From Mariprofundus ferrooxydans PV-1 (lineage in GTDB: Bacteria; Pseudomonadota; Zetaproteobacteria; Mariprofundales; Mariprofundaceae): 64,000 bases of DNA. Below, piece after piece: positions 17,031 to 44,841 of this stretch. The DNA is taken from the NCBI RefSeq assembly GCF_000153765.1, contig NZ_DS022294.1, positions 1-64,000 on the forward strand. Reading direction: 5' to 3'. The notes below the pieces were generated by a model. It was not told where the DNA came from. It was given only the letters and a program-made list of their open reading frames with translations, and searched no databases. The translations under genes were made by a program, and so were the position numbers. Each line of letters starts with the position of its first letter. Position 1 is the first letter of the stretch.

Positions 17031-17040
17031 TTCATTTCAC

Positions 17041-23099: not shown

Positions 23100-23155
23100 A
23101 AATAAACTCCACTTGTTAATCCATATAAGCAGGAAGCATTGTCACATCTGCTTAT

Positions 23156-23174
23156 GATGCGGGCTCTTGCCCGC
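23156..23174. repeat. 19-bp hairpin-forming repeat, copy 2 (intergenic)
   Basis: The same 19 bases as 21804-21822, here in the non-coding gap upstream of capE. It can form a 6-bp GC stem with a four-base loop. It is not followed by a clear T-run on either strand, so it is not a standard terminator. Confidence 0.7.
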
Positions 23175-23235
23175 TCAAAATAGTTTTTCCTTCCAGCAAG
23201 CCCGAATAAACCTGTCGCTGCCGGAGTAAATACAC

Positions 23236-24189: not shown

Positions 24190-24196
24190 ACCAACA

Positions 24197-25093: not shown

Positions 25094-25115
25094 TCAGGAA
25101 GCCTCTCTGCCCTGG

Positions 25116-25883: not shown

Positions 25884-25944
25884 ACCAATATGGCCCCCGA
25901 ATACAGAGTTGTGTTATTACCTTTTCCGGAAAAACCGACTGCAG

Positions 25945-26910
25945 CTAAAGACCGGCCTTGCGTTTATACCTGCTGAGTCGCGTTCGAAGCTGTATATAGG
26001 CCCCATAACAGGATTTCTCAAACGGCTTGAAAACCATCCACTGCATTGACTCTTTCTGTTGCCCGGAAAGAATTTGATAAAGCTGTTTTTTCTGTTTCAT
26101 ATCCAGATCTTCACTGACCCTGATGGTCTTGCGAAACCCGTGATAATAATTCCTCAGCAACTTATAAAGCCTTAGCTTGTTACTCAGCGCCTTATCGATT
26201 TCCTGATTACCCACCGAGTCGGGCTGCTGCGAGGTATGCGTGAGAATCACTCTCTCGATTGCCAAATTGCCTCGGCTCAACAAATAAAACACAAACAGTA
26301 TATCAATCGCCCATGGCATGATTTTCCCGCTTTGTTTTCCGATCACACTGCGCCATGCAGCGAGCGCCGTTTCCCTGCTCATCAGGCCGTAAATAATATT
26401 CGCCTTGCCGTGCTCGACAGGCTGAAGCAGAAACTGCTTCAGCCGCGTGTATAAATCGTCGGACGGAAGTTCGAGCAGATAGTCGTTATACCTGTCTGTC
26501 ACATTTCCCGTAGCCGTATCGTGAACATCGAAGAAAGAGAATGCAACCGAGGCACTTTCATCCTTTTCAAGCAGTTCAAGCATGGCATGGATATACTCCG
26601 GCTCCCATGCATCATCGTCCGCCGCCCACATAAAATATGCGCCTGCAGACTGCTCAAGCAGGTAACCGAAATTATTCACCGCGCCGATATTTTTTTTCTG
26701 CCGGTAGTAGCGCACTCTCGGGTCTTTCCCGATAAACTCCCGCACCACCTGTTCCGTCGCATCACCGGGGCTACAATTATCCGAAACGATAATCTCAAGA
26801 TGACGATAGGTCTGTCGGGTTATGCACTCCAGAGTTCGCCGCAACCCTTCCGGACGGCTATAGCTGGGGATACCGACCGAAACCAGCGGCTGTTGTTGCA
26901 TAATGCTCAC
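25945..26910 (-). CDS. glycosyltransferase family 2
   Basis: A 321-aa GT-A enzyme. LVSVGIPSYSRPEGLRRTLE opens the domain, followed by IVSDNCSPGDATE and the acidic FMWAADDDAWEPEY motif. The C-terminal third is basic, with a KKQLYQIL helix and an RTRLSRYKRK tail. It sits inside the methyltransferase block. Donor and acceptor are unknown. Confidence 0.88.
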   Translation of the reverse strand: MSIMQQQPLVSVGIPSYSRPEGLRRTLECITRQTYRHLEIIVSDNCSPGDATEQVVREFIGKDPRVRYYRQKKNIGAVNNFGYLLEQSAGAYFMWAADDDAWEPEYIHAMLELLEKDESASVAFSFFDVHDTATGNVTDRYNDYLLELPSDDLYTRLKQFLLQPVEHGKANIIYGLMSRETALAAWRSVIGKQSGKIMPWAIDILFVFYLLSRGNLAIERVILTHTSQQPDSVGNQEIDKALSNKLRLYKLLRNYYHGFRKTIRVSEDLDMKQKKQLYQILSGQQKESMQWMVFKPFEKSCYGAYIQLRTRLSRYKRKAGL

Positions 26911-26947
26911 TTCAAATCTTCACTGAAACAATCCGGCGCTGCTGACC

Positions 26948-27685
26948 TCAGGCCACCCGTTTCAGGAAGCCATCAGGTGCTACGGTGATCAGCACCTTAT
27001 TTTCGATAGCCTTGTCGATCTCGAATTCGGGATGGCTCTTCAGGTATTCCCATACAGCGGTTTTCGGGTTGTCACCCTTGCCCCAGGGGCGGTCGGACGG
27101 GCACTCCTCTGCCGTGTCCTCAACAATGGTATCGTAAACAACACAATAGCTGCCCGCCGTTACCAGACCGGCATAGGCATTCAACTCAGCCAGCACATGC
27201 TCGTGCGTATGGTTCGAATCAAGGAACACCAGCACCCGCTGCTTGCCGCTTGCCATTTCGTGAATGCGCCCGACAATTTCCGGCGCAACGCTGGAACCCT
27301 CGATCATCGTAATGCGCCTGAACATCGGATGCTCCTCGATCGCCTGCCTGTTATGCGGGCGAATATCGATATCGATGCCAACAACTGCTGCATCCGGGTT
27401 ACCACCGCAGGCGGCGTTCAACTCCAGCATCGAGGCGGAAAAGATCAGCGAACCGCCGTGGGCTATACCCGTTTCAATTATCAGATCCGGCTGCACATTC
27501 CAGATAATCTCCTGCATTGCCGCCATATCCTGCGGATACTGGATGATCGGTCGACCCAACCAGCTGAAGTTGTAGGAGTACTGAGGCTTCAACGATGCAC
27601 GCATAAAACCGGCTGCACTGGCCTTCAATTCCTCATTATGGCCGTTTTCCTCAACACGCACTTCGACCTCTTGCTTAAAACTCAT
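26948..27685 (-). CDS. CmcI/rhamnosyl O-methyltransferase-like protein
   Basis: A 245-aa protein of the cephalosporin-hydroxylase (CmcI) family, which are class I SAM methyltransferases used on sugars and antibiotics. Recognisable parts are QDMAAMQEIIW, DLIIETGIAHGGSLIFSASML (SAM site), VVGIDIDIR, LVFLDSNHTHEHV and YDTIVED, including the metal-binding Asp residues. It overlaps the upstream methyltransferase gene (27675) by 11 bases. O-methylation of a glycan residue is the likely role. Confidence 0.88.
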   Translation of the reverse strand: MSFKQEVEVRVEENGHNEELKASAAGFMRASLKPQYSYNFSWLGRPIIQYPQDMAAMQEIIWNVQPDLIIETGIAHGGSLIFSASMLELNAACGGNPDAAVVGIDIDIRPHNRQAIEEHPMFRRITMIEGSSVAPEIVGRIHEMASGKQRVLVFLDSNHTHEHVLAELNAYAGLVTAGSYCVVYDTIVEDTAEECPSDRPWGKGDNPKTAVWEYLKSHPEFEIDKAIENKVLITVAPDGFLKRVA

Positions 27686-28748
27686 GATGATCCACCTTGA
27701 TATAATGGTATTTATTTTTCGACTGCCTGACGATTTCGTCGAAATAATTCGAGTTCATAACGAACATATTCGCCGACTCCGACAACGATTCCATGGCCGC
27801 CTCGGGCGACAACACCTGTAACCCGGTAACGGCAATGTATTTATTCTGTTTGGCCGGGTTGATATCGATGATCATATCCACCGGAGAACCTGCACGTTGC
27901 ATGTACAGGGCAAAGGTCACCCCTTTGGAGGCTCCGCCCCATATTGCATGCTGCCTGCCCGGTTGCTGCAGAATACGGCCGGACCAGGCATCGATATCGG
28001 CAAGAAAATCAGCAGGAAACTCGAGCGATTCGCCCCTGCCCAACTGCGGTGTCCGTAACGTAGCCAGCTCGGCTACTACATAGAGATACTGACCGCCGAA
28101 TATATGCCCTGCCTCAACTACATTACCGAACATACGATAAAAATCGTCCAGACGAAAATAGTTCACATGTTCATAAAACAGATCAAACCAGGCTCGCGAG
28201 CTACATATCCAGTCAAAGCACGGAACCTCAATATAAATCAGCCCCTGCCCGCCATTGGCTTCGGCCACCTGAGCCAGAAACTCGACAGGATTAACCATAT
28301 GCTCGAGAACATGGCGCAGGATAATACCATCCCCTTTAATACCGACGCCGGGTTCAAAACAGACCGGTAACACATCGGGACTATCACCTTCATAGGCCGG
28401 GTCCACACCGGTCACGCGGTGCCCCTGATGTTTCAGGTGTTCAAGAAAATAGCCTTTGCCGCAACCTACCTCAATCAGCGATTTATCATGAAAGTGGCGA
28501 CCAATAATCTCCGTTACATCCTGCAGGTGATACTGAAACACACCGGAGTGTGCCTGTTCATTCTGGTAGTCACTGTCATAGACCAGTAGCGACGGGTCAA
28601 ACGCGGCATTGAATATCAAGCCACTATCCATGTCCTGTACCAGCACCAGGTCGCCCGTCGGGCATGACTGTGCGGCGGCAGCCGTTGCAAACATCTTGTT
28701 CTGAAAAACCGGCAGCTTTGCTGTTCGAAAAATCTCCCGTTGACTCAA
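27675..28748 (-). CDS. class I SAM-dependent methyltransferase
   Basis: A 357-aa protein. Central motifs are SLIEVGCGKGYFLEHLKHQG (motif I, about residues 90-109), VTGVDPAYEG and GIILRHVLEHMVNPVEFL. The C-terminal part (AIWGGASKGVTFALYMQ...DINPAKQNKY) resembles the Rossmann-like domain that follows the SAM domain in sugar C-methyltransferases. It lacks the N-terminal Cys-rich zinc domain that the neighbouring 408-aa protein has. Either a C- or an O-methyltransferase is possible. Confidence 0.82.
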   Translation of the reverse strand: MSQREIFRTAKLPVFQNKMFATAAAAQSCPTGDLVLVQDMDSGLIFNAAFDPSLLVYDSDYQNEQAHSGVFQYHLQDVTEIIGRHFHDKSLIEVGCGKGYFLEHLKHQGHRVTGVDPAYEGDSPDVLPVCFEPGVGIKGDGIILRHVLEHMVNPVEFLAQVAEANGGQGLIYIEVPCFDWICSSRAWFDLFYEHVNYFRLDDFYRMFGNVVEAGHIFGGQYLYVVAELATLRTPQLGRGESLEFPADFLADIDAWSGRILQQPGRQHAIWGGASKGVTFALYMQRAGSPVDMIIDINPAKQNKYIAVTGLQVLSPEAAMESLSESANMFVMNSNYFDEIVRQSKNKYHYIKVDHHEF

Positions 28749-28812
28749 AATATCTCCAGCAGTGTATCTGGGTTTCGGCGGCCGAAATTGAGCAACCGCA
28801 GTTCGAAATCGC

Positions 28813-30039
28813 TCATTCGCAAATCTGCAAATGCGGTACAGCCGTCACGAAGCGCCCACCCCACTGATTGACAGCCTTATTATGCTCCATCACCTCATCG
28901 GCTATATTCCACGGTAAAATCAGAATAAAGTCCGGCTTTTGATCATGGATATGTTCCGGCGCGAGAATAGGAATATGGCTGCCGGGCATAAATTTATTCT
29001 GCTTGGCGGCAGCTGCATCGCATACAAACGGCAGCAGGTCGGGCTTGACACCTGCATAATTAAGCAATGTATTACCCTTGGCCGCAGCACCATAAGCGGC
29101 AACCGTTTTCCCCGAGCGCTTCTGCTCAATCAAAAACGACAACAAATCGTTTTTCACACGATCTGCCTTGGGCTGGAAAGCCAGGTAGACATCCAGTCCT
29201 CGCATGCCGGCAGCAAGCTCTGCAGCCAGAACGGCATGCACGGCAGCACGGACCTCGAAACCGGCATCAGCATGGCAACCGTAAACCCGCAGACTGCCTC
29301 CGTGGGTAGGCAGCTGCTCCACATCATATACAACCAAACCTGCGCGTTCAAAAATGCGCTGTACGCTATACAGCGACAGATAGGAATAGTGTTCATGGTA
29401 AACCGTATCGAACTGGTTAAGCTGAATAAGGTTGAGCAGGTGTGGAAATTCCAGTGTGATTGTGCCGCCCGGCTTCAACGCAGTTTTTAGCCCCATGGTG
29501 AAATCATTGATGTCAGGGACATGGGCATAGACATTATTGCCCAGAATCAGGTCAGCCTGCTTATCTTCGGCAACAAGATTCTCAGCCAGTGACTGACCGA
29601 AAAACTCCCTCATCACAGGGATATTCAGTTGCTCTGCTGCATCGGCAGTACTGGCTGTCGGCTCAACCCCCAGACAGGGAACGCCCGCCTCGACAAAATT
29701 GCGCAGCAGGTAGCCATCGTTTGATGCCACTTCGATCACAAAGCTCTCTTCATCCAAATGCAGTCGGTCGCTGATCATATCGCAGTAGTCGGCGGCATGT
29801 TGCATCCAGCCGGATGAGGTCGATGAGAAATAGGCGTAGTCTTTAGTAAACAGCTCATCCGAACGCGCATAATCCTCGGTCTGAACCAGCCAGCAGCTAT
29901 CACAAACATGCAGCTTCAACGGAAAATAGAGCTCAGGCGCATGCAAATCCGCCGGGTTTAGATAGGCATTGGATGGCGGCGCAAATCCCAGATCGAGAAA
30001 AACATGCTGCAGTGGCAACTTACAGTGACGGCATTTCAT
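28813..30039 (-). CDS. NDP-sugar C-methyltransferase
   Basis: A 408-aa protein with three parts: an N-terminal Cys4 zinc-binding domain (CRHCKLPL...CDSCWL, about residues 3-50), a central SAM domain (VIEVASNDGYLLRNF; VLGVEPTAS-like GVEPTAST), and a C-terminal Rossmann-like domain (VAAYGAAAKGNTLLNY). This is the layout of TylC3-type NDP-4-ketosugar 3-C-methyltransferases. It lies just upstream of rfbF in sequence order, which suggests a branched CDP- or GDP-deoxysugar, although no CDP-glucose dehydratase is encoded here. Confidence 0.9.
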   Translation of the reverse strand: MKCRHCKLPLQHVFLDLGFAPPSNAYLNPADLHAPELYFPLKLHVCDSCWLVQTEDYARSDELFTKDYAYFSSTSSGWMQHAADYCDMISDRLHLDEESFVIEVASNDGYLLRNFVEAGVPCLGVEPTASTADAAEQLNIPVMREFFGQSLAENLVAEDKQADLILGNNVYAHVPDINDFTMGLKTALKPGGTITLEFPHLLNLIQLNQFDTVYHEHYSYLSLYSVQRIFERAGLVVYDVEQLPTHGGSLRVYGCHADAGFEVRAAVHAVLAAELAAGMRGLDVYLAFQPKADRVKNDLLSFLIEQKRSGKTVAAYGAAAKGNTLLNYAGVKPDLLPFVCDAAAAKQNKFMPGSHIPILAPEHIHDQKPDFILILPWNIADEVMEHNKAVNQWGGRFVTAVPHLQICE

Positions 30040-30196
30040 TATAAACTATTTCCTGAAGTTCAAGTATTGGTTAGCAGGTATCATCTATTGCAGGCGGGTA
30101 TGATGGTAGCATTTATCTCGGCTAACACTCGCCATCATGGGAACTGAATGGACTGACAATGTTGCTCTGCAACCGCGAATTGGCCGCAAAGCAACC

Positions 30197-30970
30197 TCAT
30201 CTCCACACCTTCCATGGCGCACTGCCGGAAGACCACAGCTCTTCAAGTTGCGTCTTGTCGCGCAGCGTATCCATGGGCTGCCAGAAACCGTGGTGCCGGA
30301 ATGCTGCCAGCTCGCCCTCTGATGCCAGCCCCTTCAGCGGTTCGAGTTCCCATGAGGTCGCATCTCCTTCGATACGTTCAAGTACTTTTGGTGAAAGCAC
30401 GAAGAAGCCGCCATTGATCCATCCGCCATCGCCATGCGGTTTCTCTTCGAAACAGCCTACCTTGAGCTCATGCGTGATCTCCATGGAACCGAAACGCCCG
30501 GGTGGTTGCACAGCTGTGACCGTAGCCTGACAGCCCTGCTCCTGGTGAAAACGGATCAATTCGCTGATATCGACATCGCTGACTCCGTCGCCGTAGGTGA
30601 AACAGAACGCTTCGTCATCCAGATACTCACCGACTCGTTTCAATCGACCACCGGTCATCGAATTATCGCCAGTGTCGACAAGCGTTACTTTCCAAGGCTC
30701 GACCGCATTCTGGTGCACTTGCATCGAGTTATCATTCATATCGAAGGTTACATCCGACATATGCAGGAAATAGTTGGCAAAATACTCTTTTACCATATAA
30801 CCCTTGTAACCCAGGCAGATAATGAATTCATTGATACCGTGGGCACTGAATACCTTCATGATATGCCAAAGTATTGGCTTACCTCCAATCTCAATCATTG
30901 GCTTGGGCCTAAGGTGCGTCTCCTCACTGATTCGAGTTCCCAAGCCACCTGCAAGAATAACTGCTTTCAT
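30197..30970 (-). CDS. rfbF: glucose-1-phosphate cytidylyltransferase
   Basis: A 257-aa nucleotidyltransferase. The N-terminus [18 protein letters not shown] carries the L-A-G-G-x-G-T-R signature. [26 protein letters not shown]-like [12 protein letters not shown] and [14 protein letters not shown] are typical of RfbF, which makes CDP-glucose from CTP and glucose-1-phosphate. Length matches the family. It follows wzt with a one-base gap. The expected partner, CDP-glucose 4,6-dehydratase (RfbG), is not encoded in the window. Confidence 0.92.
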
Positions 30971-30971
30971 G

Positions 30972-32243
30972 CTAAGGCCTTTTTCCTTGACTTACAGATG
31001 TTTCCCAAACCAGTTGAGGACGAACCACACCGGGTAAGTCCCCATGATAATCGCCTCTTGCAGAGTCCCCTGATGCATTGTCCACTACTTCAAAGGCAAC
31101 CACATCCTGCTCATAAAAATGTACGCACTGCGGTTCAAACGTGGTCAGAGCCACACCTACAAGCATCGTTCCTTCAGCCAACAAGTTCCCGGGGATCCAC
31201 GCCGTGCTCTTATAGCGCCCAAGCTCCTTGGGCAGGTCACAGTGTTCAGATTTGTTATCTATTGAGATAAAAGCGTATACACCCTCACTGTTAAAAAAAT
31301 GACAGTTTGGCTGAAGCACATGACCTGACTTCAACACTTCGTACTCTACCTCAATGCCAACTGGCTTATGAATATCGACCCGTTCGGAGGTAATGCCGTC
31401 CTCAGAACAGACCCTGACACTTAAAAGTCGAGCCACATCATCGCCCGGAGCCGTGGCAGAATCATCCCACCGGGCCCATGCCCCGGTCCCCGTACCCTCC
31501 TGCAAATAGCTTTTAATAACGTGGTGAACTGGGCCATCGGCAACAACACCGCCCTGATTCAACAGTATTGCCCGATTACATAAGCGACTGATGGTGCCCA
31601 TATTATGGGAGACAAACAGTACCGTTCGCCCCTGCTTGCCAACTTCCTGCATCTTTCCCATACACTTCTTCTGGAAAGTTGCATCACCAACGGCGAGCAC
31701 TTCATCAACAATCAATATTTCCGGTTCAAGGTGCGCAGCCACGGCAAATGCAAGACGCACATACATGCCTGATGAATATCGTTTCACCGGTGTGTCGAGA
31801 AACTTCTCCACCTCGGCAAATGCAACGATCTCATCGAATTTTGACTGAATCTCCTTACGCGACATACCGAGAATAGCGCCGTTGAGATATATATTCTCTC
31901 GTCCGGTCAGTTCCGGGTTGAAGCCTGTTCCTACCTCCAGCAGGCTGGAGACGCGTCCATTGAGCTCAATTCTGCCCGTACTCGGATCAGTAATACGGGA
32001 TAGAATTTTGAGAAGCGTGGACTTGCCTGCACCGTTCTTACCGATAATTCCGACTACCTCACCCTGCTGAATATCAAAACTGACATTCCGTAGGGCCCAG
32101 AACTCCTCGGCCACTTCCTCTTGCATGGAGCGTCCCGTCAGACGCTGCAATCCCCGTTTGAACGGGTTGGTCAGATTTTTTGAGCTGACGATATGTCCAA
32201 GCTGGTATTTCTTCGAAACGCCTTCAACCTTAATCATAGACAT
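30972..32243 (-). CDS. wzt: polysaccharide ABC exporter ATP-binding protein (Wzt) with C-terminal glycan-binding domain
   Basis: A 423-aa protein. The ABC domain has Walker A GKNGAGKS at residues 68-75, the signature YSSGM near 156, and Walker [13 protein letters not shown] near 175-186. The about 150 residues after position 265 form a beta-rich region (VRVCSEDG..., [13 protein letters not shown]) of the Wzt C-terminal type, which in characterised systems binds the modified non-reducing end of the glycan before export. It is paired with wzm; a heptamer-repeat array fills the 129-base gap between them. Confidence 0.93.
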
Positions 32244-32260
32244 AATGGCAGCCTCCGGCT

Positions 32261-32368
32261 GAGTGGAAAGTTGTAAGTTGCAGGTTGAATGTTTGCAGAC
32301 AATTGCGATGAGCTTTCAACTTTCAACCTATAACTTTGAACTGACCTGCTAACTTTCAACTTGTAACT
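32261..32368. repeat. heptamer repeat array 2 (wzm/wzt junction)
   Basis: Two opposed arms of 7-base units: AGTTGTA-AGTTGCA-GGTTGAA on the left, and TTTCAAC twice, then TATAACT, TTGAACT and a final TTCAACT-TGTAACT on the right. The array fills nearly the entire gap and begins about 8 bases after the wzm stop codon. Confidence 0.85.
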
Positions 32369-32372
32369 ACCC

Positions 32373-33239
32373 CTACACCACATCTGCAAAATTCTTCTCG
32401 ACACGCGTAAAATAGAAAAGCCCGACCACCAAAAAGAGAATGCTGAATCCAACCGAGTAGAACAGGCTTATCCAGTTCATGGGCTGCTCAAGAAGAATCG
32501 AACGAAAACAGTTAATGTATCCATACATCGGGTTGAAATCGAGCAGCCAGCGCCATTTTTCTGATACAACTTCAGCCGGATACATAACAGGCGTCAGGTA
32601 CATCCAGAACGTAGTAATATAGCTCAGTACCATGCCGAAGTCGCGAACCTTGACTATGATGGCTGAGAAAATCATACCAATGCCAACACTCAGGCAGGCA
32701 ATTCCGAGCATCACAACAGGAATTAACAGCGATGACACCGAAGGATAGAATCCGTAGTACATCATTAACAAAAACAGCACAAACAATGCGATTAGAAAAT
32801 CAACCATGCCGCTGCCCAAACTTGAAAGGGGAATCCATAGCCGCGGAAAATACACCTTTGTAACAATGGATTGGTTGGCCACCAAGCTGTTACCTGCCCT
32901 GCCCAATGCACCCTGGAAAAAGCTCCATGGCAGAATCCCAGCCATGACAACCAGCTGATAAGGCACATCTCCGGTCAGCGAATCAAAACCAGCCAGCTTT
33001 CCGAATATGACAGTAAATACAACCATTGACATGATCGGTTGAAGTGCCGCCCAGGAAAAGCCGAGCAGCGTCTGCTTATATCGCACCTTGATATCCCGGG
33101 AGGTAAAAGCCCACAACAAACCACGATAGTGCCACAGCTCATGCCAGCGCACAGGAATCCAGCCCGTACGGGGCCTGATTACCGTTCTGTGTTTACGTAA
33201 ATCTGTTGCTGAATCGTTCAAGGAATTCACTCCGTTCAT
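32373..33239 (-). CDS. wzm: polysaccharide ABC exporter permease (Wzm)
   Basis: A 288-aa ABC-2-type permease. A cytoplasmic N-terminus (RPRTGWIPVRWHELWHYRGLL) precedes six hydrophobic segments. YKQTLLGFSWAALQPIMSM and the DFNPMYGYINCFRSILL region are conserved in Wzm/TagG permeases. With Wzt it forms the inner-membrane exporter for fully polymerised lipid-linked glycan. It is flanked on both sides by heptamer arrays. Confidence 0.93.
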   Translation of the reverse strand: MNGVNSLNDSATDLRKHRTVIRPRTGWIPVRWHELWHYRGLLWAFTSRDIKVRYKQTLLGFSWAALQPIMSMVVFTVIFGKLAGFDSLTGDVPYQLVVMAGILPWSFFQGALGRAGNSLVANQSIVTKVYFPRLWIPLSSLGSGMVDFLIALFVLFLLMMYYGFYPSVSSLLIPVVMLGIACLSVGIGMIFSAIIVKVRDFGMVLSYITTFWMYLTPVMYPAEVVSEKWRWLLDFNPMYGYINCFRSILLEQPMNWISLFYSVGFSILFLVVGLFYFTRVEKNFADVV

Positions 33240-33240
33240 A

Positions 33241-33329
33241 AGTTACAGGTAATGCGGTTGAAAGTTGAAAGTAAAATGCAGTAAAGGCTCTAACTTTCTA
33301 CTTTCTCGCTTGAAACTTTCAACTTTTTC
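33241..33329. repeat. heptamer repeat array 3 (galE/wzm junction)
   Basis: Left arm AGTTACA, GGTTGAA and AGTTGAA units; right arm TAACTTT, CTACTTT, TTGAAAC and TTTCAAC units. The right arm overlaps the last about 13 codons of galE, which ends MKKLKVSSEKVES. Confidence 0.85.
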
Positions 33330-34291
33330 ATATGCCATTTCCACGCGGTTTCTATGATGGTTTCCAGAGCGCCAAGGGTCGGCTGCCAGCCCAGCTCTCT
33401 CGATATCACCGCAGCATCGCCGGCTAAAGCAGGCGCATCACCCGGGCGCCGGGGACCGTATTGAACAGGTATCTCTTTACCCGTCACGCTAGCTGCAACC
33501 TCGATAAGCTCCCTGATGGAGTAACCCTTGCCATTGCCCAGATTGTAAGCCCGGCTTTGCTCACCGCGCAACAAAGCCTGCAACGCCAGCAGGTGCGCAT
33601 TCGCCAGATCGGTCACATGTATATAATCCCGTATACAGGTGCCATCAGGCGTATCGTAGTCCGTACCGTTGATCATAATTGAATCCCTGACGCCTGCTGC
33701 GGCATCCAGAACCAGCGGTATCAGATGCGTTTCAGGTTCGTGATCCTCACCAATCTCGCCATCCGGATCTGCTCCGGCCGCATTGAAGTAGCGCAAGGCT
33801 ACAAAACGGAGGCCGTAGGCAGAATCATAGTCCTTGAGGATACGCTCTACCATCAGTTTGGAGGCGCCATAAGGGTTGATCGGTTGCTGAGCATGCGTTT
33901 CCGGAATCGGGATGACTTCGGCTTCGCCATAGGTGGCGCAGGTGCTGGAAAACACGATTTTATTCACGCCGTGCCTGCGCATGGCATCCAGCAGATTCAA
34001 CGTACCGGCAACATTGTTGCGATAATATTTGCCCGGCTCTCCGACCGATTCTCCGACATAGGCATAGGCGGCAAAGTGCATGACAGCGGCGAAATCGTAC
34101 CGGGCAAACACTTCATTCAGCCGCGTTTCATCGGCCAGATCACCGCGCTCAAACGGGCCCCACTGCACCGCCCATTCATGGCCATAAACCAGATTATCAA
34201 ACACCACCGGCGTATAGCCAGCTTTTGCCAACGCTTTGCAGGCATGACTGCCGATATATCCGGCTCCGCCGGTGACTAAGACATAAGACAT
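33290..34291 (-). CDS. galE: UDP-glucose 4-epimerase
   Basis: A 333-aa GalE. The NAD motif GGAGYIGSH is at residues 7-15, with VVFDNLVYGHEWAV, HFAAYAYVGESV, SSTCATYGE and PYGASK (catalytic Y-x3-K), plus RYFNAAGADPDGEIGE, all diagnostic. It interconverts UDP-Glc and UDP-Gal for the glycan. The final LKVSSEKVES tail is encoded by heptamer repeats and is unlikely to be part of the ancestral protein. Arrays lie at both ends of the gene. Confidence 0.95.
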   Translation of the reverse strand: MSYVLVTGGAGYIGSHACKALAKAGYTPVVFDNLVYGHEWAVQWGPFERGDLADETRLNEVFARYDFAAVMHFAAYAYVGESVGEPGKYYRNNVAGTLNLLDAMRRHGVNKIVFSSTCATYGEAEVIPIPETHAQQPINPYGASKLMVERILKDYDSAYGLRFVALRYFNAAGADPDGEIGEDHEPETHLIPLVLDAAAGVRDSIMINGTDYDTPDGTCIRDYIHVTDLANAHLLALQALLRGEQSRAYNLGNGKGYSIRELIEVAASVTGKEIPVQYGPRRPGDAPALAGDAAVISRELGWQPTLGALETIIETAWKWHMKKLKVSSEKVES

Positions 34292-34292
34292 C

Positions 34293-34451
34293 AGTTGTAA
34301 GTTCCAGGTTGAAAGTTGAAAGTTGGAAATTCCAGATTGAAAGTGGAAAGTTTCAAGTTGTTAAACATGGATATTTTTCCATTGGTTACCGACATTCAAT
34401 TGTTTCCCCTGATTTGCTACTTTCAACATGCTACTTTCTACTTTCAACAGG
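34293..34451. repeat. heptamer repeat array 4 (four-helix gene/galE junction)
   Basis: Starts next to the galE start codon. The left arm has about ten 7-base units (AGTTGTA, AGTTCCA, GGTTGAA, AGTTGAA, AGTTGGA, AATTCCA, GATTGAA, AGTGGAA, AGTTTCA). After a 55-base spacer, the right arm has GCTACTT and TTCAACA units. The right arm contains the stop codon of the four-helix-bundle gene. Confidence 0.85.
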
Positions 34452-34821
34452 ACTCTTTATTACTGCGTAGGTATCTTATCAGAGAGGCGATCATCCGGCT
34501 GATTTCAGATACTTCGCTGATCAACTTTCCAGACTGCGCCATATCAAGATAACCCTGATCGGTTGCGATATAGAGCTGACATCTGAGTTCGCCGGCCGAA
34601 CCTTTGGCGATAGTCAGAAAACGCGAAAACTCTTTAGCACCGCCACGCTCAAATCCCTCAGCGATATTGGACATGATGGATACGGATGAGCGACGAATCT
34701 GATCCTTCAAACCATAATCTCTGGAAAAGTCATCCAGCCTGGTCAGCGCATATACCTCATTGGTAAGCTCACGAGCCTTTTTCCATGCATCGATATCTTC
34801 AAAGCGTTCAAAGCTGCTCAT
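34444..34821 (-). CDS. four-helix-bundle protein (S23 / Avd-like family)
   Basis: A 125-aa protein that is almost entirely helical. It has the conserved N-terminus FEDIDAWKKARELTNEVY and the block DQIRRSSVSIMSNIAEGFERGG near residues 41-62, followed by EFSRFLTIAKGSAGELRCQL. These are signatures of the four-helix-bundle family found as 23S rRNA intervening-sequence proteins and as relatives of diversity-generating-retroelement Avd. There is no reverse transcriptase or variable protein nearby, so a DGR role is not supported. It is enclosed by heptamer arrays 4 and 5, and its stop lies in the repeat. It has no evident role in glycan synthesis. Confidence 0.9.
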   Translation of the reverse strand: MSSFERFEDIDAWKKARELTNEVYALTRLDDFSRDYGLKDQIRRSSVSIMSNIAEGFERGGAKEFSRFLTIAKGSAGELRCQLYIATDQGYLDMAQSGKLISEVSEISRMIASLIRYLRSNKESC

Positions 34822-34829
34822 TAACTAAT

Positions 34830-34935
34830 ATTCCAAAGTTCCAGGTTGAAAGTTGAAACCTGTAAACTTGTCACTTTCAACTTTCCAGCTCGTTACCATT
34901 AATTTGCTACTTGTAACTTTGAACTTTTCAACTCC
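34830..34935. repeat. heptamer repeat array 5 (gmd/four-helix gene junction)
   Basis: The left arm has AGTTCCA, GGTTGAA and AGTTGAA units. The right arm has CTTTCAA, CTACTTG, TAACTTT, GAACTTT and TCAACT units. The right arm overlaps the last dozen codons of gmd (ELKSSKLQVAN). Confidence 0.85.
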
Positions 34936-35879
34936 GCCTCTACCAGGCGCCGGATCAACTCTGCGAAATGAACTTCCGCTTTCCAGCCCAGACGCTCAAA
35001 CGCTCTGGAAGGATCGCCTTCGCTGAACATCAGGTCCGACGGACGATAGAGCGACTCATCCACCTCAACATGTTCACGCCAGTCGAGGTCCAGTGTCTGA
35101 AATACCAGTGCGACAAACTCTTCCAGCGAATGGCTCTCGCCAGTGGCAATAACGATGTCCTCCGGTGAATCCAGCTGCAACATGCGCCACATGGCATCGG
35201 CATACTCCGGTGCCCAGCCCCAGTCGCGACGGATAGCCATATTTCCCAGCCGTAGCTTATCTTTGCTGCCGCCGGCGATACTGCACGCTGTAGCGACAAT
35301 CTTACGGGTTACAAATCGGGCGGGTCTGAGCGGAGACTCGTGATTAAACAGGATACCCGAGCAGGCATGCAAGCCGTAGGCCTCCCGGTAGTTGGCCGTA
35401 GCCCAGAAGGCTGCCGCTTTGGCTGCAGCATAGGGACTTCGCGGGTGAAATGGTGTGGCCTCGTGACTGGGAGCGCCTTCGCGGACAGCACCGAAACATT
35501 CGCTGGAGCCGGCATTGTAGAGCCGTATCGGAGCATTGAGATAGCGCATTACTTCCAGTACCTGCAAGCTGCCAAGGGCAATGCTCTCCATGGTCTCCAT
35601 AGGCTGCGAAAAAGAGAGACCAACCGATGTCTGCCCGGCCAGATTATATATTTCATCCGGCTCAACCTGGGTAATCACCTGCAACAGATTCCTGAAGTCG
35701 ACCAGCGAGGCCGAGTGCAGTGACACCTGATCAGCAATACCTAGTTTGCCAAGGTTAGTGAATGAACGACTGTCTACATCGCGTGATGTGCCATGCACCC
35801 GGTAACCTTTTTTCAACAGCAGGTCGGCCAGATAGCAGCCGTCCTGACCGGAGATACCGAGAATCAGAGCTGTTTTCAT
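34899..35879 (-). CDS. gmd: GDP-mannose 4,6-dehydratase-like SDR
   Basis: A 326-aa extended SDR, slightly shorter than typical Gmd (about 345-370 aa). Motifs are GISGQDGCYLADLLLKKGY, VEPDEIYNLAGQTSVGLSF, SSECFG, FHPRSPYAAAKAAAFW (Y-x3-K), GILFNHESPLRPARFVTRKI and RRDWGWAPEYADAMW. It would make GDP-4-keto-6-deoxymannose, precursor of GDP-L-fucose, GDP-rhamnose or GDP-perosamine. None of the second-step enzymes is in the window. The C-terminal ELKSSKLQVAN is heptamer-encoded. Confidence 0.9.
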   Translation of the reverse strand: MKTALILGISGQDGCYLADLLLKKGYRVHGTSRDVDSRSFTNLGKLGIADQVSLHSASLVDFRNLLQVITQVEPDEIYNLAGQTSVGLSFSQPMETMESIALGSLQVLEVMRYLNAPIRLYNAGSSECFGAVREGAPSHEATPFHPRSPYAAAKAAAFWATANYREAYGLHACSGILFNHESPLRPARFVTRKIVATACSIAGGSKDKLRLGNMAIRRDWGWAPEYADAMWRMLQLDSPEDIVIATGESHSLEEFVALVFQTLDLDWREHVEVDESLYRPSDLMFSEGDPSRAFERLGWKAEVHFAELIRRLVEAELKSSKLQVAN

Positions 35880-35880: not shown

Positions 35881-35962
35881 AATACAGTTGAAAGCTGAAA
35901 GTTGAAAGTTGAAAGTCAGCCGACTTGCAACCTGTAACTTGTAACTTGCAACTATTAACTTT
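35881..35962. repeat. heptamer repeat array 6 (wzc/gmd junction)
   Basis: Read on the minus strand, the array runs AAAGTTA-ATAGTTG-CAAGTTA-CAAGTTA-CAGGTTG-CAAGTCG, followed by the opposed units TTCAACT (twice), TTCAGCT and TTCAACT. It fills the whole 75-base gap and includes the wzc stop codon. Confidence 0.88.
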
Positions 35963-38393
35963 CATCTTTCTTCTCCGCATCTTCGCCGTAATCGTGACTG
36001 TAGTAGCCGTATTTGCTGCCATAGCCACCGTAGCCGCCATACGTGCCGCCATATCTGCCATACTTCTTATAGCCATAGCCGCCGTAAACAGATGAAACCT
36101 TGAAGCCGTTGAATATCACACCAACCGGCTTGATATGTACGGTATTAAGCTGGGTAATGGCACGCTGCACCGCATCAATCGGCGCATGATTCGCGCGCAC
36201 AACAAGGAACAGGCCATCAACCTTCGGTCCGAGCAACACGGCATCGGTTACTACCAGCACCGGCGGCACGTCAAGCAGGATCATCTCGTACTCTTCCTTG
36301 ATCTCTTCAAGGAAAGCGCTCATCGATTTGGAGCCGAGCAATTCGGACGGATTGGGCGGAATCGAGCCTGAGGAAATTACGCTTAGATTTTCGACCGTTG
36401 TCGGCATCGCCAGTTCATGCCAATCCTGGCTGTGAATCAGGATATCACTCAACCCAGAATGGCGCTCCAGTCCGAAATATTCATTCACACGCGGCTTGCG
36501 CATATCGCAATCGATCAGCAACGTCTTCAAGCCGGAATTAGCCATGGTGACAGCGATATTGCAGGTCGTTGTCGTTTTGCCCTCGCCCGGCACAGCACTG
36601 GTCATAATCAGTGTTTTGATCGTTTTCTCCAGGTTGGCAAACTGGATATTGGTTCTCAAACTTCGATAGGCCTCGCTCTCCGGCGAGCGGGGCTTGGACA
36701 TCGTGATCAGGCTGTTACGGTTACCCGCCTCACTCGCACTGAACGGCAGTGTACCGAATACCGCCAGACCTGACTTGCTTTCCAGCTCCGCCAGACTCTT
36801 GATCGTGCGGTCCATATTCTCACGCAGGAATGCGACACCAAGGGCGAGGGCCAAAGCAGCCAGCAACGCCTTGATTGCATCATTAAAGCGGTTGGGCAGG
36901 ATCGGCCTAAACGGCACCTCAGCCGGCTCAATGACACGCACATCGGAGAGCAGGATCGCCTGATCAATGCTATCCTGCTGCTTGCTCTCAAGCACTCGTT
37001 GCAGCAGTGCCGTCAGCGCAGTCGATTGCCCCTTGCGCTCCAACGCCCTTCTCAATGCCTCGGCATTGCCGGCCTTCTGCTCCCGCTTCGTCTCCAGTAG
37101 TTCCTGATTCATGCGCTGCTTAAGAAATGCAATTTTCTGTTCAAGTGACGAATTGACCCGCTTACGCAACTCCTTGACCTGCCCCTTGAGGATATCGATT
37201 TCACGGTCGAGCTTGACCACTTCGGGAAATTTATCGGTAACCCCCCGGCGCAACAGTGTGCGTTTGGCCTGCAACTTACTGATTTTTGAACTTAATTCGC
37301 TAAACGCAGCACTCATGCTTTCAGGCACATCAAGCACCTGCATGGCTGCCTCTAGCTTGTCATCGCTGATCCCGGCCAGATAATCCAAAATAAAACGGGT
37401 CTGCTTAATTTCTCCATACGCTTCGGCCCAGCGTTTGCTTAATCCCTCAACCTGACCGAGCAACACCTCACCCTGCATATCCTGCATCAGATTGGACGAG
37501 TTGGTATTGGCATGCAATTCGTTCAGGTCGCTCTGCACCCGCTGCTGGATCTTGTCGAGAAAGTCGATTTTTTTCTGCAAGCGACCGCCTTTGAACGCGA
37601 TCTCCTCATCGCCGTAAACCGAGGCCAGGGCTTTGAGTACCGCTGCAGATCTGTAACGGTCATTATCGGTAAAAGTGACGTACAACATATCGCTACTACT
37701 CTGCGAAGCGCTCAAGCGCGCACGAATACCCTTGGCTATGGGCTCCGCCGGCCGATTGCCAATGCTGTAGACAGTTCCTACAGGACCATGCCAGCTACTG
37801 ATCGAGAGCTTGAAACCATCGAGTTCCACCTCTCTGCCCTGAACCGTATCCAGAGCATGACCGGTCAGCGGGTTTTCAATGCGGAAATGCCCCTCATCAA
37901 GAAAAGTAATCACCAGAGAATCATAGGCTTTGTCTGCTGGCGGTAAAAATTCGCCCAAATCAACATGGGTCAGCGGCACATCCATGCCGATGACCCCCTT
38001 GATACGATCCCGGATCTTCATCCACAGTGAGCGCCCCGCCACCAGCGTGGTAACGCGGTCCAGCTTCAACTCTTTGACAATACGCACCGCCACCGGCAAC
38101 GACTTGATGACTGCAATCTTTGAATCGAGTTTGTCCTGCTGCTGAAAGCCGGGGAAGCCGCCCCTGCCCATCTTCATGCCTGCATTATTGCTCATCGCCG
38201 TATCTTCACTCTGGAACTGCACCGTCATGGCGGACATGTAAACCGGGGTCTTGGAGAGCGACCACAACATGCCTGCAACAAACACAACCAGAGTGATCGC
38301 CAGAATAACCCAGCGCTGGCGTACCGCCATATCAAGGTAGTCTTCCAAACTGCGTTCGGTCTGTGCGGAGATCATTTCATTCATCATATTCAT
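35955..38393 (-). CDS. wzc: polysaccharide co-polymerase / BY-type tyrosine autokinase (Wzc)
   Basis: An 812-aa protein. The N-terminal Wzz domain has one membrane helix near residues 28-48. A long coiled-coil periplasmic region (about 250-470) and a second helix (about 520-540) follow. The cytoplasmic BY-kinase domain shows Walker A PGEGKTTTTCN, Walker A' LLIDCDMRKP and Walker B MILLDVPPV. The last about 50 residues form a Gly/Tyr-rich tail with about 12 tyrosines, the autophosphorylation cluster, unusually dense here. Together with Wza and Wzb it controls polymer length and export. The gene begins seven bases after the wza stop. Confidence 0.95.
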   Translation of the reverse strand: MNMMNEMISAQTERSLEDYLDMAVRQRWVILAITLVVFVAGMLWSLSKTPVYMSAMTVQFQSEDTAMSNNAGMKMGRGGFPGFQQQDKLDSKIAVIKSLPVAVRIVKELKLDRVTTLVAGRSLWMKIRDRIKGVIGMDVPLTHVDLGEFLPPADKAYDSLVITFLDEGHFRIENPLTGHALDTVQGREVELDGFKLSISSWHGPVGTVYSIGNRPAEPIAKGIRARLSASQSSSDMLYVTFTDNDRYRSAAVLKALASVYGDEEIAFKGGRLQKKIDFLDKIQQRVQSDLNELHANTNSSNLMQDMQGEVLLGQVEGLSKRWAEAYGEIKQTRFILDYLAGISDDKLEAAMQVLDVPESMSAAFSELSSKISKLQAKRTLLRRGVTDKFPEVVKLDREIDILKGQVKELRKRVNSSLEQKIAFLKQRMNQELLETKREQKAGNAEALRRALERKGQSTALTALLQRVLESKQQDSIDQAILLSDVRVIEPAEVPFRPILPNRFNDAIKALLAALALALGVAFLRENMDRTIKSLAELESKSGLAVFGTLPFSASEAGNRNSLITMSKPRSPESEAYRSLRTNIQFANLEKTIKTLIMTSAVPGEGKTTTTCNIAVTMANSGLKTLLIDCDMRKPRVNEYFGLERHSGLSDILIHSQDWHELAMPTTVENLSVISSGSIPPNPSELLGSKSMSAFLEEIKEEYEMILLDVPPVLVVTDAVLLGPKVDGLFLVVRANHAPIDAVQRAITQLNTVHIKPVGVIFNGFKVSSVYGGYGYKKYGRYGGTYGGYGGYGSKYGYYSHDYGEDAEKKDES

Positions 38394-38400
38394 ATCGTGA

Positions 38401-39765
38401 TCACCACAACCTGCCCTTGCCGATCGAATAGATGGCCATGGTCTGCAGCAGCGTATTCAGACTCGGCGTAATCTCTGTCAGCACATCGTTAACCTTGCCA
38501 ATAAACGAGTTCGGTACATAAATAATATCGCCTGCCTGCAGCACAATGTTCTGCCGCCCGTCACCCTCTTCCAGCGCAGCCAGATCGATGGTGCGCATCA
38601 TCGGGTTATTCAAGCCACCGCGAATCACCTTGATCTGGTCTTTCAGGGCTGTATTGGTGACATATCCGGCCTGGGTCAGTGCATCAACAAGGCTCAACTG
38701 CCCCTTATAAAGCGGCACAATCGTCGGAGAACCAACCTCACCCAGCACGAACACTTTCTGATCGCGATTGCTCGGCAAATAGAGGATGTCGCGGTCGGTA
38801 AGCATCACATCGGTACGCCTGTCACCCACCTCCATCAGTCGGTGGAAGTTGACATCCATAAATTTCCCATCGCGGATCATGTAGGCACCCGACCAGTTTA
38901 CATTGGCTGAGAGCACATCCAGTTGCAGCATCGCTTCAAACAACGAGACCTTGCCGCGAATCGGCACAACACGGGAGATCGACTCGCCTGTATCATTCTT
39001 TGCCGCAGCAGCCAGATTGTTCACCTTGTTTGATTTCCTGCTGCCGGTCGTACTACCAATAGAGCCGCCACCAACAATGCCACCCATGCCGTAGGCACCG
39101 GCAAGGGTGCTCATTGCCGAACTCAACTGCTGCTGCGCCTGGCTATTCGCACCGAAGGATTGCGCCTTGTTACCGCTGACCATGCCTGCGCGTTGAAAGA
39201 TATCGAGATCACCGATCAGGAACAGCTTCTTGCTGGCATAATCGGCAATATTCAGATCCAGCTGCGGATTGCGGATATAGGTTGAATACTTCTCTGTCAG
39301 CACCTGCTGAGCCTCAACCAGCGTCATGCCGGCCAGTTTTACATTGCCAACATAAGGAGCGAAGATCGTACCGTTTTCCTTGATCGCTGCGGTACGGGAG
39401 AGCTTGTCATAGCCCCATATAGTTACCGTAACCTCATCGCCAGGACCCAGAAGATAAGAGCCACTCGGCAGATTGGCCTTGCCAAGCATACCCCCGATCT
39501 TTTCCATATCCAGAGAGGATGATTTCTTCTGGAAAGCATCCCCGCTACGCACCATCGAGCCGTCGGGACGCTCCCAAAGAGCGGTGTCATCATCCACCGG
39601 CTTCTGCGTAGAAGCAGCTGCCACCTTCCCTGGCTGCCAACCGGTAGACATCGCAGCGCACCCGCTCATCGTAAACAGCGCCACAACGCTAAAAACAATT
39701 GTCGCAAAGCTATGACGCACTCTGCAAGCAGTTACCGGTACTTTCTGCTGGTGATTATTATTCAT
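38401..39765 (-). CDS. wza: outer-membrane polysaccharide export lipoprotein (Wza)
   Basis: A 454-aa protein with a signal peptide ending in a lipobox (FTMSGC, Cys about residue 36). The polysaccharide-export domain has YLLGPGDEVTVTIWGYDKLS and IFAPYVGNVKLAG, and SLBB-type repeats follow (VFVLGEVGSPTIVPLYKG). A Gln/Ser/Gly-rich insertion (about residues 195-255) interrupts the usual pattern. The C-terminal segment LLQTMAIYSIGKGRLW would supply the outer-membrane helix. It overlaps wzb by four bases. Confidence 0.94.
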   Translation of the reverse strand: MNNNHQQKVPVTACRVRHSFATIVFSVVALFTMSGCAAMSTGWQPGKVAAASTQKPVDDDTALWERPDGSMVRSGDAFQKKSSSLDMEKIGGMLGKANLPSGSYLLGPGDEVTVTIWGYDKLSRTAAIKENGTIFAPYVGNVKLAGMTLVEAQQVLTEKYSTYIRNPQLDLNIADYASKKLFLIGDLDIFQRAGMVSGNKAQSFGANSQAQQQLSSAMSTLAGAYGMGGIVGGGSIGSTTGSRKSNKVNNLAAAAKNDTGESISRVVPIRGKVSLFEAMLQLDVLSANVNWSGAYMIRDGKFMDVNFHRLMEVGDRRTDVMLTDRDILYLPSNRDQKVFVLGEVGSPTIVPLYKGQLSLVDALTQAGYVTNTALKDQIKVIRGGLNNPMMRTIDLAALEEGDGRQNIVLQAGDIIYVPNSFIGKVNDVLTEITPSLNTLLQTMAIYSIGKGRLW

Positions 39766-40247
39766 TCTACAACCTCTTTAATCATCGGCGCGAGAACCTT
39801 GCTTGCCGCTTCGACATGCAATGCAATCTCTTGCGCACACACATTAAAATCCTGCTGACTCTTCCTGTAGGGATCGGCGACATCTTTTCCCTTCATCGCA
39901 CCCTGTGAAAAATGACTGATGAGAAACACGCGCCCGTACATATGCGGATATTTCGTTTGCAAGTGTTCCTTTTGATTCTTCTCCATGACAAAAACCATAT
40001 CCGCCGCCTCCAGCTGCGGACGAAACAGCTGCCTGCCCCGGTGAGCGGAGATGTCCACCCCGTATGCTTTCGCAGCCTGCTGCATCTCTTTTGCAGCAGG
40101 ATCCCCGACCAGCGCGCCCAGCCCTGCAGAATCAATGGATGCTTTCGGCAGCGCCTTAGCCAGCAGAGCCTCCGCAAAAGGCGAACGGCAGATATTACCA
40201 ACACACAAAACAAGAATACGGTTAATCAGAGATCTCCCTGCCAGCAA
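39762..40247 (-). CDS. wzb: low-molecular-weight protein tyrosine phosphatase (Wzb)
   Basis: A 161-aa phosphatase with the catalytic C-x5-R loop CVGNICRSP (Cys about residue 15) and the general-acid DPYRKS motif near residue 128. In capsule systems it dephosphorylates the Wzc tyrosine tail. Its position directly before wza and wzc supports that role. Its start overlaps the end of the uxs gene by 26 bases, and an internal start at [15 protein letters not shown] is already the first Met. Confidence 0.93.
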
Positions 40248-41211
40248 CCACGCCGCTGTCTGTCACAAATGTATCAGAAAAATAACGGATTGTTTTTTCC
40301 AGGCCCTCTTTAAGCGCAACGTTGGGCTGCCACCCCAGGCTGCTACGAGCCAACGTGATATCAGGCTGACGCTGGGTAGGGTCATCCTGCGGCAGGGGTC
40401 TCAAAACAATCGTCGAAGTTGAACCTGTCATGGCGATGATCTGCTGTGCCAGCTCAAGGATTGTGAACTCCACCGGATTACCCAGATTGACCGGGCCGGT
40501 AAAATCATTATCTGTAGCCATCAGGCGGACGAAGCCGTCAACCAGGTCATCAACAAAACAGAAGGAGCGCGTCTGGCTGCCGTCACCGTAAATGGTAATC
40601 GGCAAGCCCTGAAGGGCCTGCATAATGAAATTGGAAACGACACGCCCGTCATTCGGATGCATGCGCGGACCGTAGGTGTTGAAAATGCGAGCCACCTTGA
40701 TATTCAGCCCATGCTGTCGGTGGTAGTCGAAAAACAGCGTCTCGGCACAGCGTTTACCCTCATCGTAACAGGAACGAATGCCGACCGGGTTTACGTGACC
40801 CCAGTAGCCTTCGGTCTGGGGATGCACTTTCGGATCGCCGTAGACCTCGGAGGTCGAAGCCTGAAAAATCTTTGCCTTGGTTCGCTTGGCCAGTCCCAGC
40901 ATGTTGATAGCGCCGTGTACGCTGGTTTTAGTCGTCTGTACCGGATCAAACTGATAATGCACCGGTGATGCAGGACAAGCCAGGTTATAGATCTCATCGA
41001 CCTCCACATAGAGAGGAAACGTAACATCGTGTCGCATCATTTCGAAATGCGGGTTTTGCATCAGATGAACAATATTATCCTTGCTGCCGGTAAAAAAATT
41101 ATCCACACACAATACGTCATGGCCGTCATTTAACAGCCTCTCACACAGATGTGAGCCTAGAAAACCGGCGCCGCCGGTTACCAAAATGCGTTTTCGAATC
41201 ATATCAGGCAT
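40222..41211 (-). CDS. uxs: UDP-glucuronate decarboxylase (UDP-xylose synthase)
   Basis: A 329-aa SDR. The NAD motif GGAGFLGSH is near residues 13-21, with [43 protein letters not shown] and [12 protein letters not shown] (Y-x3-K), plus [19 protein letters not shown]. These are the diagnostic blocks of UXS. It makes UDP-xylose from UDP-GlcA supplied by Ugd, encoded immediately upstream. UDP-GlcA is thus shared between xylose and, through the 6119-7342 epimerase, GalA. Confidence 0.95.
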
Positions 41212-41217
41212 CGGTCA

Positions 41218-41290
41218 GAACCTCGTGAGTGGTGAATAGTAAAGCATAAGTAGCCATTGGCGAGAACTGATCAAGTTTCACTATTCCCGG
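41218..41290. repeat. heptamer repeat array 7 (ugd/uxs junction)
   Basis: A weaker member of the repeat set: GGTGAAT-AGTAAAG-CATAAGT on the left and TTTCACT-ATTCCCG on the right. GAATAGT and ACTATTC are complementary. The right arm includes the last codons and the stop of ugd (GNSET). Confidence 0.6.
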
Positions 41291-42620
41291 TTAATGGCAT
41301 GCTCCGTCCTATTGAATAATAGGTGATGCCGTGTTTCCGCATCCGTGACGGTTCATACAGATTACGTCCATCGAATATTACAGGCTCCGACATTGAATCT
41401 CCGATCAGATCAAAATCCATCGCCCGGAAATGCTGCCATTCGGTGACGATCACCAGCGCGTCGACATCACACAAGGCCGCTTCGGCCGTCTCCATCAGAG
41501 CAAGATCAGAGCGCGATCCATAGATACGCTGACACTCCTGCATGGCCTCCGGGTCGTAGGCCTGTACCTTTGCTCCTGCAGCCCAGAGCGACTCCATCAG
41601 CACACGCGACGGCGCCTCACGCATATCATCGGTATTCGGCTTAAAACTCAGCCCCCACAGGGCAAATGTTTTGCCCACCAGCTCACCGGAAAAGTGATCG
41701 CTGATCATAGCAAACAGTTTCTCTTTCTGGCGATAGTTGACCGCTTCGACCGACTTGAGCACTTCAGGCTGATACCCGATCGCATCGGCAGTACGGATCA
41801 ATGCCTGAACATCCTTGGGAAAACAGGAGCCTCCGTAACCGCAACCGGGATAAATGAACTGGTAACCGATACGACTGTCCGAGCCAATGCCAAGACGTAC
41901 CGCCTCGATATCCGCACCCAGCCGCTCTGCCAAATTGGCAATTTCGTTCATAAAGCTGATCTTGGTCGCCAGCATGCAATTGGCCGCATATTTTGTCAGC
42001 TCGGCACTCCGGATATCCATGACAATCAGGCGATCATGATTGCGGTTAAACGGTGCATACAATTCACGCAGTACGTCGGCAACCGTATCGCTGTCTGTAC
42101 CGACGACTATACGATCCGGCCTCCGGCAGTCAGCAACCGCCGATCCTTCCTTGAGGAATTCCGGGTTGGATACCACATTGAATGCGTATGACACTCCGCG
42201 CGATGTAAGCACCTCAGCCACCCTGGCCGAGACCTTGTCGGCCGTACCAACCGGCACTGTACTTTTATCGATGATAATTTTCGGTCCCTGCATATGAGTG
42301 GCAATCATCTCCGCCACAGCCAATACATATTGCAGGTCGGCGGAACCATCTTCATCAGGAGGCGTCCCTACGGCGATAAACTGAATCTCGCCATGATTGA
42401 CGCCCGACTTCGCATCTGTGGTGAAATTCAGACGACCATTCTGATAGTTTTCAATAACGATAGGCGTCAGATCAGGCTCATAAATCGGTATAATGCCTTT
42501 CTTCAGGTTATCCACCTTCTCCTGATCGACATCAACACAGACCACATGGTGGCCTACATCCGCCAGAATCGCGGCCTGCACCAGGCCAACATAGCCAACA
42601 CCAAAAAATGTTACTTTCAT
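41271..42620 (-). CDS. ugd: UDP-glucose 6-dehydrogenase
   Basis: A 449-aa protein of normal Ugd length. The NAD motif GVGYVGL is at residues 7-13, with [33 protein letters not shown] and [11 protein letters not shown]. The catalytic Cys is in [18 protein letters not shown], and [18 protein letters not shown] follows. It oxidises UDP-Glc to UDP-GlcA, feeding Uxs and the GlcA 4-epimerase. The final few residues (NSET) fall in heptamer array 7. It lies 30 bases downstream of the triplicated beta-protein gene. Confidence 0.96.
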
Positions 42621-44204: not shown

Positions 44205-44314
44205 AATAAAACCTATGATCCCGTTGTTCCAGCAACTCGGCTATCTCCTGTTACCATATGTTACCATGTAAGACACATGGCTATATTATTTACAACAACT
44301 GACTCTCATACAGG

Positions 44315-44326
44315 CACGCTACCGCC
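44315..44326 (-). promoter_or_regulatory. ops element (RfaH recruitment site)
   Basis: The minus strand reads GGCGGTAGCGTG, identical to the 12-base ops core of enterobacterial polysaccharide operons. It lies 111 bases upstream of the GTG start of the first locus gene and in the right orientation. It is preceded by an ATTCAG/CTGAAT inverted repeat. In known systems, paused RNA polymerase at ops recruits RfaH, which suppresses termination over long operons. Confidence 0.85.
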
Positions 44327-44360
44327 ATTCAGGTGCGATGCAGCTGAATAATCCATCCCT

Positions 44361-44366
44361 ATAATA
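44361..44366 (-). promoter_or_regulatory. possible -10 box for the polysaccharide operon
   Basis: The minus strand reads TATTAT here. The start would fall near 44354, placing the ops element within the first 40 transcribed bases, as expected. No convincing -35 hexamer is visible. The same bases read TATAAT (44360-44365) on the plus strand, so direction is uncertain. Confidence 0.35.
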
Positions 44367-44841
44367 GCCGCCTCATGTCAGACAGACATAAAGACACGGG
44401 CTGATTGTTCCTTACGCTCCCGTCATTTATTTAACAGGAAGCATACATGGCACATATGACATATTGATGGCTATCCGCAACACCAGAGGCTTTTTCACTC
44501 TGAACAGGCGTAAAACCAATCAGCAGCCCCCCCCGTGCAGCGCGGAAATCAACATAAAGCAAGTCACAGGCCAAACATGGGCGAGTGCACACTACCGCAA
44601 AACAGGCACATTGGCAGCTGAAAGCGGACTACACAGCTATCAAACTGAACGCAGCCGGAACCTCCCATTCAACAGATCAGGAAACTACCGGTTTTTCATA
44701 CTGGGTTACTCCCCTCCAGAACAATGATACGATGATGGCATGTTTGCGACTTAAAGCTGTAGACCCTGCGATTTTATAGCTGGGAAGTTATAGATGAAAA
44801 CCCGCGAAGTGCAAGTGGCCCCGACCAGTCATCCTCCTCAA

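Follow-up and report, generated by a model that had tools for sequence, protein, structure and literature searches.

What carries RNAP through a polysaccharide locus of about 44 kb, and does the leader ahead of it hold a loading site for a factor of the RfaH type? The question is raised by the first 64,000 nucleotides of contig NZ_DS022294.1 of Mariprofundus ferrooxydans PV-1, the window analysed here, in which an unbroken row of 40 minus-strand genes runs from 44204 to base 20 and the widest gap measures 230 nt; window and contig begin at the same base, and the locus is visible only as far as that contig edge. The majority of the 40 genes are of polysaccharide type and include Ugd, Wzb/Wza/Wzc, Gmd, Wzm/Wzt, many glycosyltransferases, Wzx and sulfotransferases (Table 1).

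The original prediction placed a full ops match on the minus strand of the leader, 111 bases before the first gene, and had all genes from 44.2 kb to the window start on one strand. This description stands, with the distance now measured at 110 nt to the GTG start of the first ORF (ORF517). The match, GGCGGTAGCGTG, is a complete 12-nt ops that includes the central bases and TG at positions 11 and 12, as in the E. coli ops described in PMC5995543, and it lies in an untranslated leader on the strand that it shares with the long row of genes. A count of the motif, proposed as a check, gave one exact copy in the whole Mariprofundus genome (2,992,730 bases searched), located in the leader and not scattered; chance, judged from composition, would give about 0.5 per genome and 5e-5 per leader. 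A terminator and promoter scan of 38000-45600 found no clear promoter in the leader, and an Rfam scan of the leader with E up to 1 gave no match. Next to the first gene, at 44197-44250(-), a Shine-Dalgarno-like AGGAG is followed by an ORF of 12 codons that begins with TTG and has its stop codon overlapping the start region of ORF517; it possibly encodes a leader peptide with coupled translation.

Table 1. Features of the leader, the polysaccharide locus and the candidate partner protein.
Feature	Position	Strand	Remarks
Untranslated leader, 637 nt	44205..44841	-	separates the PPIase/TruB/IF-2 gene group from the polysaccharide locus
ops element GGCGGTAGCGTG	44315..44326	-	predicted RNAP pause T11 = base 44316
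Hairpin TTATTCAG-C-TGC-ATC-GCA-C-CTGAATGG	44325..44351	-	3' arm enters ops bases 1-2; C.C mismatch within stem
Second, weaker hairpin-ops copy	44580..44631	-	TGCGGTAGTGTG at 44588-44599; degenerate stem
First gene (ORF517), 517 aa	42651..44204	-	signal-peptide-like start; no Pfam or NCBIfam family matched
Ugd, epimerase, Wzb, Wza, Wzc	35955..42620	-	sugar activation and export core
Gmd, IVP-type small protein, Wzm/Wzt, methyltransferases, glycosyltransferases, Fnl enzymes, Wzx, arylsulfotransferase, sulfotransferase	20..35879	-	
RfaH-like NusG paralogue, 172 aa	C3:852445-852915		ends an rml-type gene group; contig other than that of the target locus

Judged by sequence, the ops site makes up the 3' half of a hairpin-ops element, and the bare 12-mer is half of the conserved unit. 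The hairpin in the window has a predicted fold energy of -8.5 kcal/mol and only moderately beats shuffled sequences, 1 of 20 shuffles being equally stable. A hairpin-ops covariance model trained on seven sites, with the window site outside the training set, matched 44307-44355(-) at 38.3 bits (E 1.6e-8, search of its own genome). When sites are aligned, the stem ends at, or enters, ops bases 1-2. Across 16 aligned sites, 96.3% of stem cells are paired, and double-sided changes occur in four pairs, over 24 cells in all; the stem has a covariation score of 0.458 versus 0.188 when shuffled (0/500), with slid partners at 0.096 or below, values that come from an alignment fitted to the structure, which favours the stem, and from sites that share descent. 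With two extra pairs involving ops bases 1-2, 91.5% of cells are still paired, and a T at ops base 1 is mostly opposite A. The median stem energy is -11.8 kcal/mol at true sites versus -4.6 at chance 12-mers (p 2.7e-5). The distance from the end of the lower 6-bp stem to T11 is 11 nt, roughly as in hairpin-stabilised pauses such as his. In E. coli ops, T11 is the pause position, and the ops pause is biochemically distinct from the hairpin-stabilised one (PMC11001881); natural zetaproteobacterial leaders appear to combine both predicted pause features, ops and hairpin.

The distribution of the element was followed in 78 zetaproteobacterial genomes, 19 with an RfaH-like protein (scoring from about 78 bits upwards) and 59 without, which were searched for exact GGCGGTAGCGTG and then for TGCGGTAGCGTG, a form that had come to notice beside rfaH in relatives (combined, [GT]GCGGTAGCGTG). 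Where the protein is present, 15 of 21 matches are in leaders, mostly ahead of Ugd/Wza/Wzb/Rml/Fnl genes, versus 0 of 19 where it is absent, 18 of the latter being inside ORFs (Fisher 1.3e-6); counted by genome, the leader element is found in 14/19 versus 0/59 (1e-11), p-values that are optimistic because some of the genomes counted had already been looked at when the T variant was defined, which leaves the absence from RfaH-lacking genomes unaffected. The leader sites include those of G038, whose contig stops short of the next gene, and G068, where the first downstream gene is of unassigned function, and weak covariance-model matches in RfaH-lacking genomes (E above 1e-4) were left out of the counts. 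Neither the covariance model nor a degenerate pattern detected the element in the other five RfaH-bearing genomes, several of which are fragmented, and those extra matches of the degenerate pattern that were examined there do not resemble the leader element. The element thus tracks the paralogue across the class, which lends support to the RfaH-type reading first proposed.

Seven genomes (G020, G046, G048, G050, G056, G057 and G068) have the element no more than 0.4 kb downstream of rfaH and G052 has it at 4.5 kb, while element and gene are on different contigs in the window genome, G047, G051, G037, G038 and G063. Both placements being seen, one protein family occurs in both arrangements. In G051, the closest relative, the operon is orthologous (genes 72-90% identical to those of the window) and the element is between the ORF517 homologue and Ugd, whereas in the window it is before ORF517. 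That both leaders appear to have kept it despite the shifted placement is consistent with selection on function. The ops is the most conserved part of the zetaproteobacterial sites, and its central bases are invariant.

A search for an RfaH/NusG paralogue, the other check put forward with the original prediction, was also positive. The NusG domain model found two proteins in the whole genome, the housekeeping NusG, whose gene adjoins those of EF-Tu, SecE and L11, and one RfaH-like paralogue, an NGN plus KOW protein of the NusG family distinct from the housekeeping one. The paralogue scores 121.5 bits with the TIGR01955 RfaH model, which is under the NCBIfam equivalog cut-off of 144.5 that is reached in 0/78 genomes of the class, and 85.3 and 43.4 bits with the UpxY and NusG models, respectively; the solved structures that match it best are those of E. 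coli RfaH (E 7e-13).

K10, Q13, R23, Y54, F56, T67, T68, T72, F130 and R138 are common to the paralogue and E. coli RfaH, while R16 is replaced by L, H20 by N, E48 by R, H65-T66 by R-W and R73 by V. Changes at K10, R16, H20, T72 and R73 are the most damaging to E. coli ops binding (PMC2871177), and from the ops-reading set K10, R16, H20, R23 and R73 the paralogue keeps K10 and R23 only. The substitutions are general among 16 zetaproteobacterial RfaH-like proteins, where E48 is R in 16/16, R73 and R16 are each missing in 15/16, and H65-T66 is changed to x-W. The Rho-binding I-F-G loop is missing in the paralogue, which has W-M-K at E. coli positions 145-147. With R16 and R73 missing and a score below the RfaH cut-off, its putative binding to ops is not assured. 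In RfaH, the bridge that maintains autoinhibition links E48 to R138 (PMC13015549), and the missing E48 argues against autoinhibition of the paralogue as predicted from its sequence. AF2 gave an all-beta CTD for the paralogue and equally for an E48-bearing Pseudomonas control (shallow alignment), so this prediction is not discriminating.

On the strength of the site, its uniqueness, the paralogue, their co-occurrence and the covarying stem, we consider it very probable that the leader contains an RfaH-type loading site, made of a nascent-RNA hairpin and ops, which would serve the polysaccharide operon of about 44 kb through the RfaH-like paralogue. The pausing, binding, NusG exclusion and antitermination in this scheme are modelled on E. 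coli RfaH. RNAP would transcribe the leader, and the hairpin would fold on leaving the enzyme. At ops T11 RNAP would pause with the lower stem ending 11 nt behind the 3' end of the RNA, where it could reinforce the pause, and the ops loop would be displayed by the non-template strand. The paralogue, supplied from the other contig, would bind the displayed ops, exclude NusG and so Rho, and stay on RNAP, such that the operon would be transcribed to its end.

Other explanations of the element have to be weighed against this scheme. Hairpin and ops might pause RNAP by themselves, for instance to allow ribosome loading, in a mechanism that works with NusG and leaves the RfaH-like protein unneeded. 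Ops alone is a consensus pause (PMC5995543), several E. coli ops-contact residues are gone from the paralogue, and the hairpin-to-T11 spacing fits a hairpin-stabilised pause; however, the element is missing from the leaders of 59/59 paralogue-less genomes, it often adjoins rfaH where that gene is present, and the central ops bases are invariant here yet dispensable for pausing (PMC5995543), all of which makes a pause of this kind improbable. Less probable again is a reading in which a dimeric repressor or activator binds the double-stranded DNA, with the inverted repeat as its operator and the ops match incidental. The near-palindrome CAGCTGC...GCACCTG, with its conserved inner letters, has the look of such a site, but the outer stem swaps letters with pairing kept (CG/AU/GU and UA/AU/CG/GC), which is unexpected for an operator, the conservation peaks in ops itself, and the loop length varies from 3 to 7. 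A chance 12-mer ahead of an ordinarily regulated locus is hardly credible: an exact copy is expected in about every second genome and chance copies are seen in related genomes, but the leader position, the E value of the covariance-model match and the recurrence in 14 genomes before the same gene types count against it.

Within the preferred reading, an RfaH-type loading site, a further idea concerns the zetaproteobacterial and Desulfobulbaceae-type sites, where a compound pause, hairpin-stabilised and consensus at once, might supply the selectivity of a non-autoinhibited, R73-less factor that loads without the fold-switch lock of E. coli. We put this forward tentatively, as rather unlikely; if true, compound-pause loading would mark an intermediate stage in evolution, with cis-acting NusG paralogues on one side and trans-acting RfaH on the other.

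The closest known arrangement is JUMPstart (Hobbs and Reeves 1994; Rfam RF01707) of Gammaproteobacteria, which has ops at its 3' end and stands upstream of O-antigen and capsule operons, and for which a conserved stem-loop has been reported (PMC2864571). Like JUMPstart, the zetaproteobacterial element lies in polysaccharide operon leaders and has a stem-loop that adjoins ops on its 5' side, and the stem of the K-12 galF-rfbB leader also ends at ops base 1. Unlike JUMPstart, its stem is of unrelated sequence, with a conserved CACCYG 3' arm and the C.C mismatch, and ops base 1 is often T. RF01707 was above its gathering threshold in 0/78 genomes of the class, the sub-threshold matches being unused as evidence, and the element is best described as JUMPstart-like in predicted architecture and not a member of RF01707 by the family's own threshold.

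The protein likewise resembles several known factors in part. As with E. coli RfaH, it is encoded away from its putative target in the window genome, whereas in several relatives rfaH is directly before the putative target operon, unlike in E. coli. Relatives that encode rfaH beside long polysaccharide operons recall the cis-acting NusG paralogues UpxY, TaA and LoaP, and the loss of E48 and some ops-contact residues is shared with the 'monomorphic' beta-RfaH (PMC13015549). In contrast to these cis-acting and monomorphic factors, a near-perfect ops with a hairpin is retained here, and the window genome has rfaH and its putative target on different contigs.

Related elements are found further afield. 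In those Deltaproteobacteria (Desulfobulbaceae and others) that are among the named relatives, ...CACCCGAAT-GGCGGTAGCATG or a closely similar sequence comes about 70-110 nt after an rfaH-like gene and has a stem upstream of it, and stem plus GGCGGTAGCATG after the rfaH-like gene also precedes polysaccharide-type genes. Sedimenticola (Gammaproteobacteria) has a stem and (G/T)GCGGTAGC(G/C)TG, divergent beside rfaH. Ops base 10 differs by group (G, A or C), with A in most of these Deltaproteobacteria and C in part of Sedimenticola. A literature search, with subscription papers mostly outside its coverage, turned up no account of ops or JUMPstart from bacteria other than Gammaproteobacteria. RfaH itself has already been reported in Zetaproteobacteria (PMC7593976), so the original remark that RfaH-type control of so long an operon would be notable outside the enterics holds in a weaker form.

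According to those who study the family, E. coli RfaH is its sole member with recruitment known in detail (PMC7593976). For another class of bacteria, the zetaproteobacterial sites supply a defined candidate element at which RfaH proteins would be recruited, and they offer natural variants of both partners, at ops base 1, T9 and the stem swaps on one side and in the losses of R16, E48 and R73 on the other. Two points are thereby made testable, the role of the JUMPstart hairpin in loading and the reading of ops without R73 and autoinhibition. In the iron-oxidising bacteria themselves, a large locus for a probably sulfated polysaccharide is likely to have the hairpin-ops element as its control switch.

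The second copy in the leader is 273 bp upstream of the main element and matches the covariance model at 21.6 bits (E 0.004, own genome), with a hairpin no more stable than shuffled sequences. Its C9-to-T variant recurs with a strong hairpin in G047, a genome of the same genus in which two complete hairpin-ops elements stand 1.2 kb apart ahead of one operon; it is the upstream one that has T at ops base 9, as in the second copy of the window.

In the locus itself, ORF517 belongs to an exported-type family with homologues in 19/78 genomes of the class and is separated from Ugd by 30 nt. An ABC exporter (Wzm/Wzt) and a Wzx-type flippase (32373-33239, 30972-32243 and 3202-4737(-)) occur together with Wza/Wzc, and exporter and flippase in one gene row may mean that there are two routes of export or that two polymers are made. 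Sulfotransferase and arylsulfotransferase genes at the far end (20-1078 and 1676-3028(-)) suggest that the polymer is sulfated. The locus was also considered as the Sfz stalk cluster and rejected as such, the published Sfz cluster being six genes of other types (PMC8250860). A PF05635 gene (23S rRNA-intervening-sequence-type, bAvd-like) is present within the locus at 34444-34821(-), and two PF05635-type genes also adjoin rmlB/rfaH in the relative G061, making the association with sugar loci a recurrent one.
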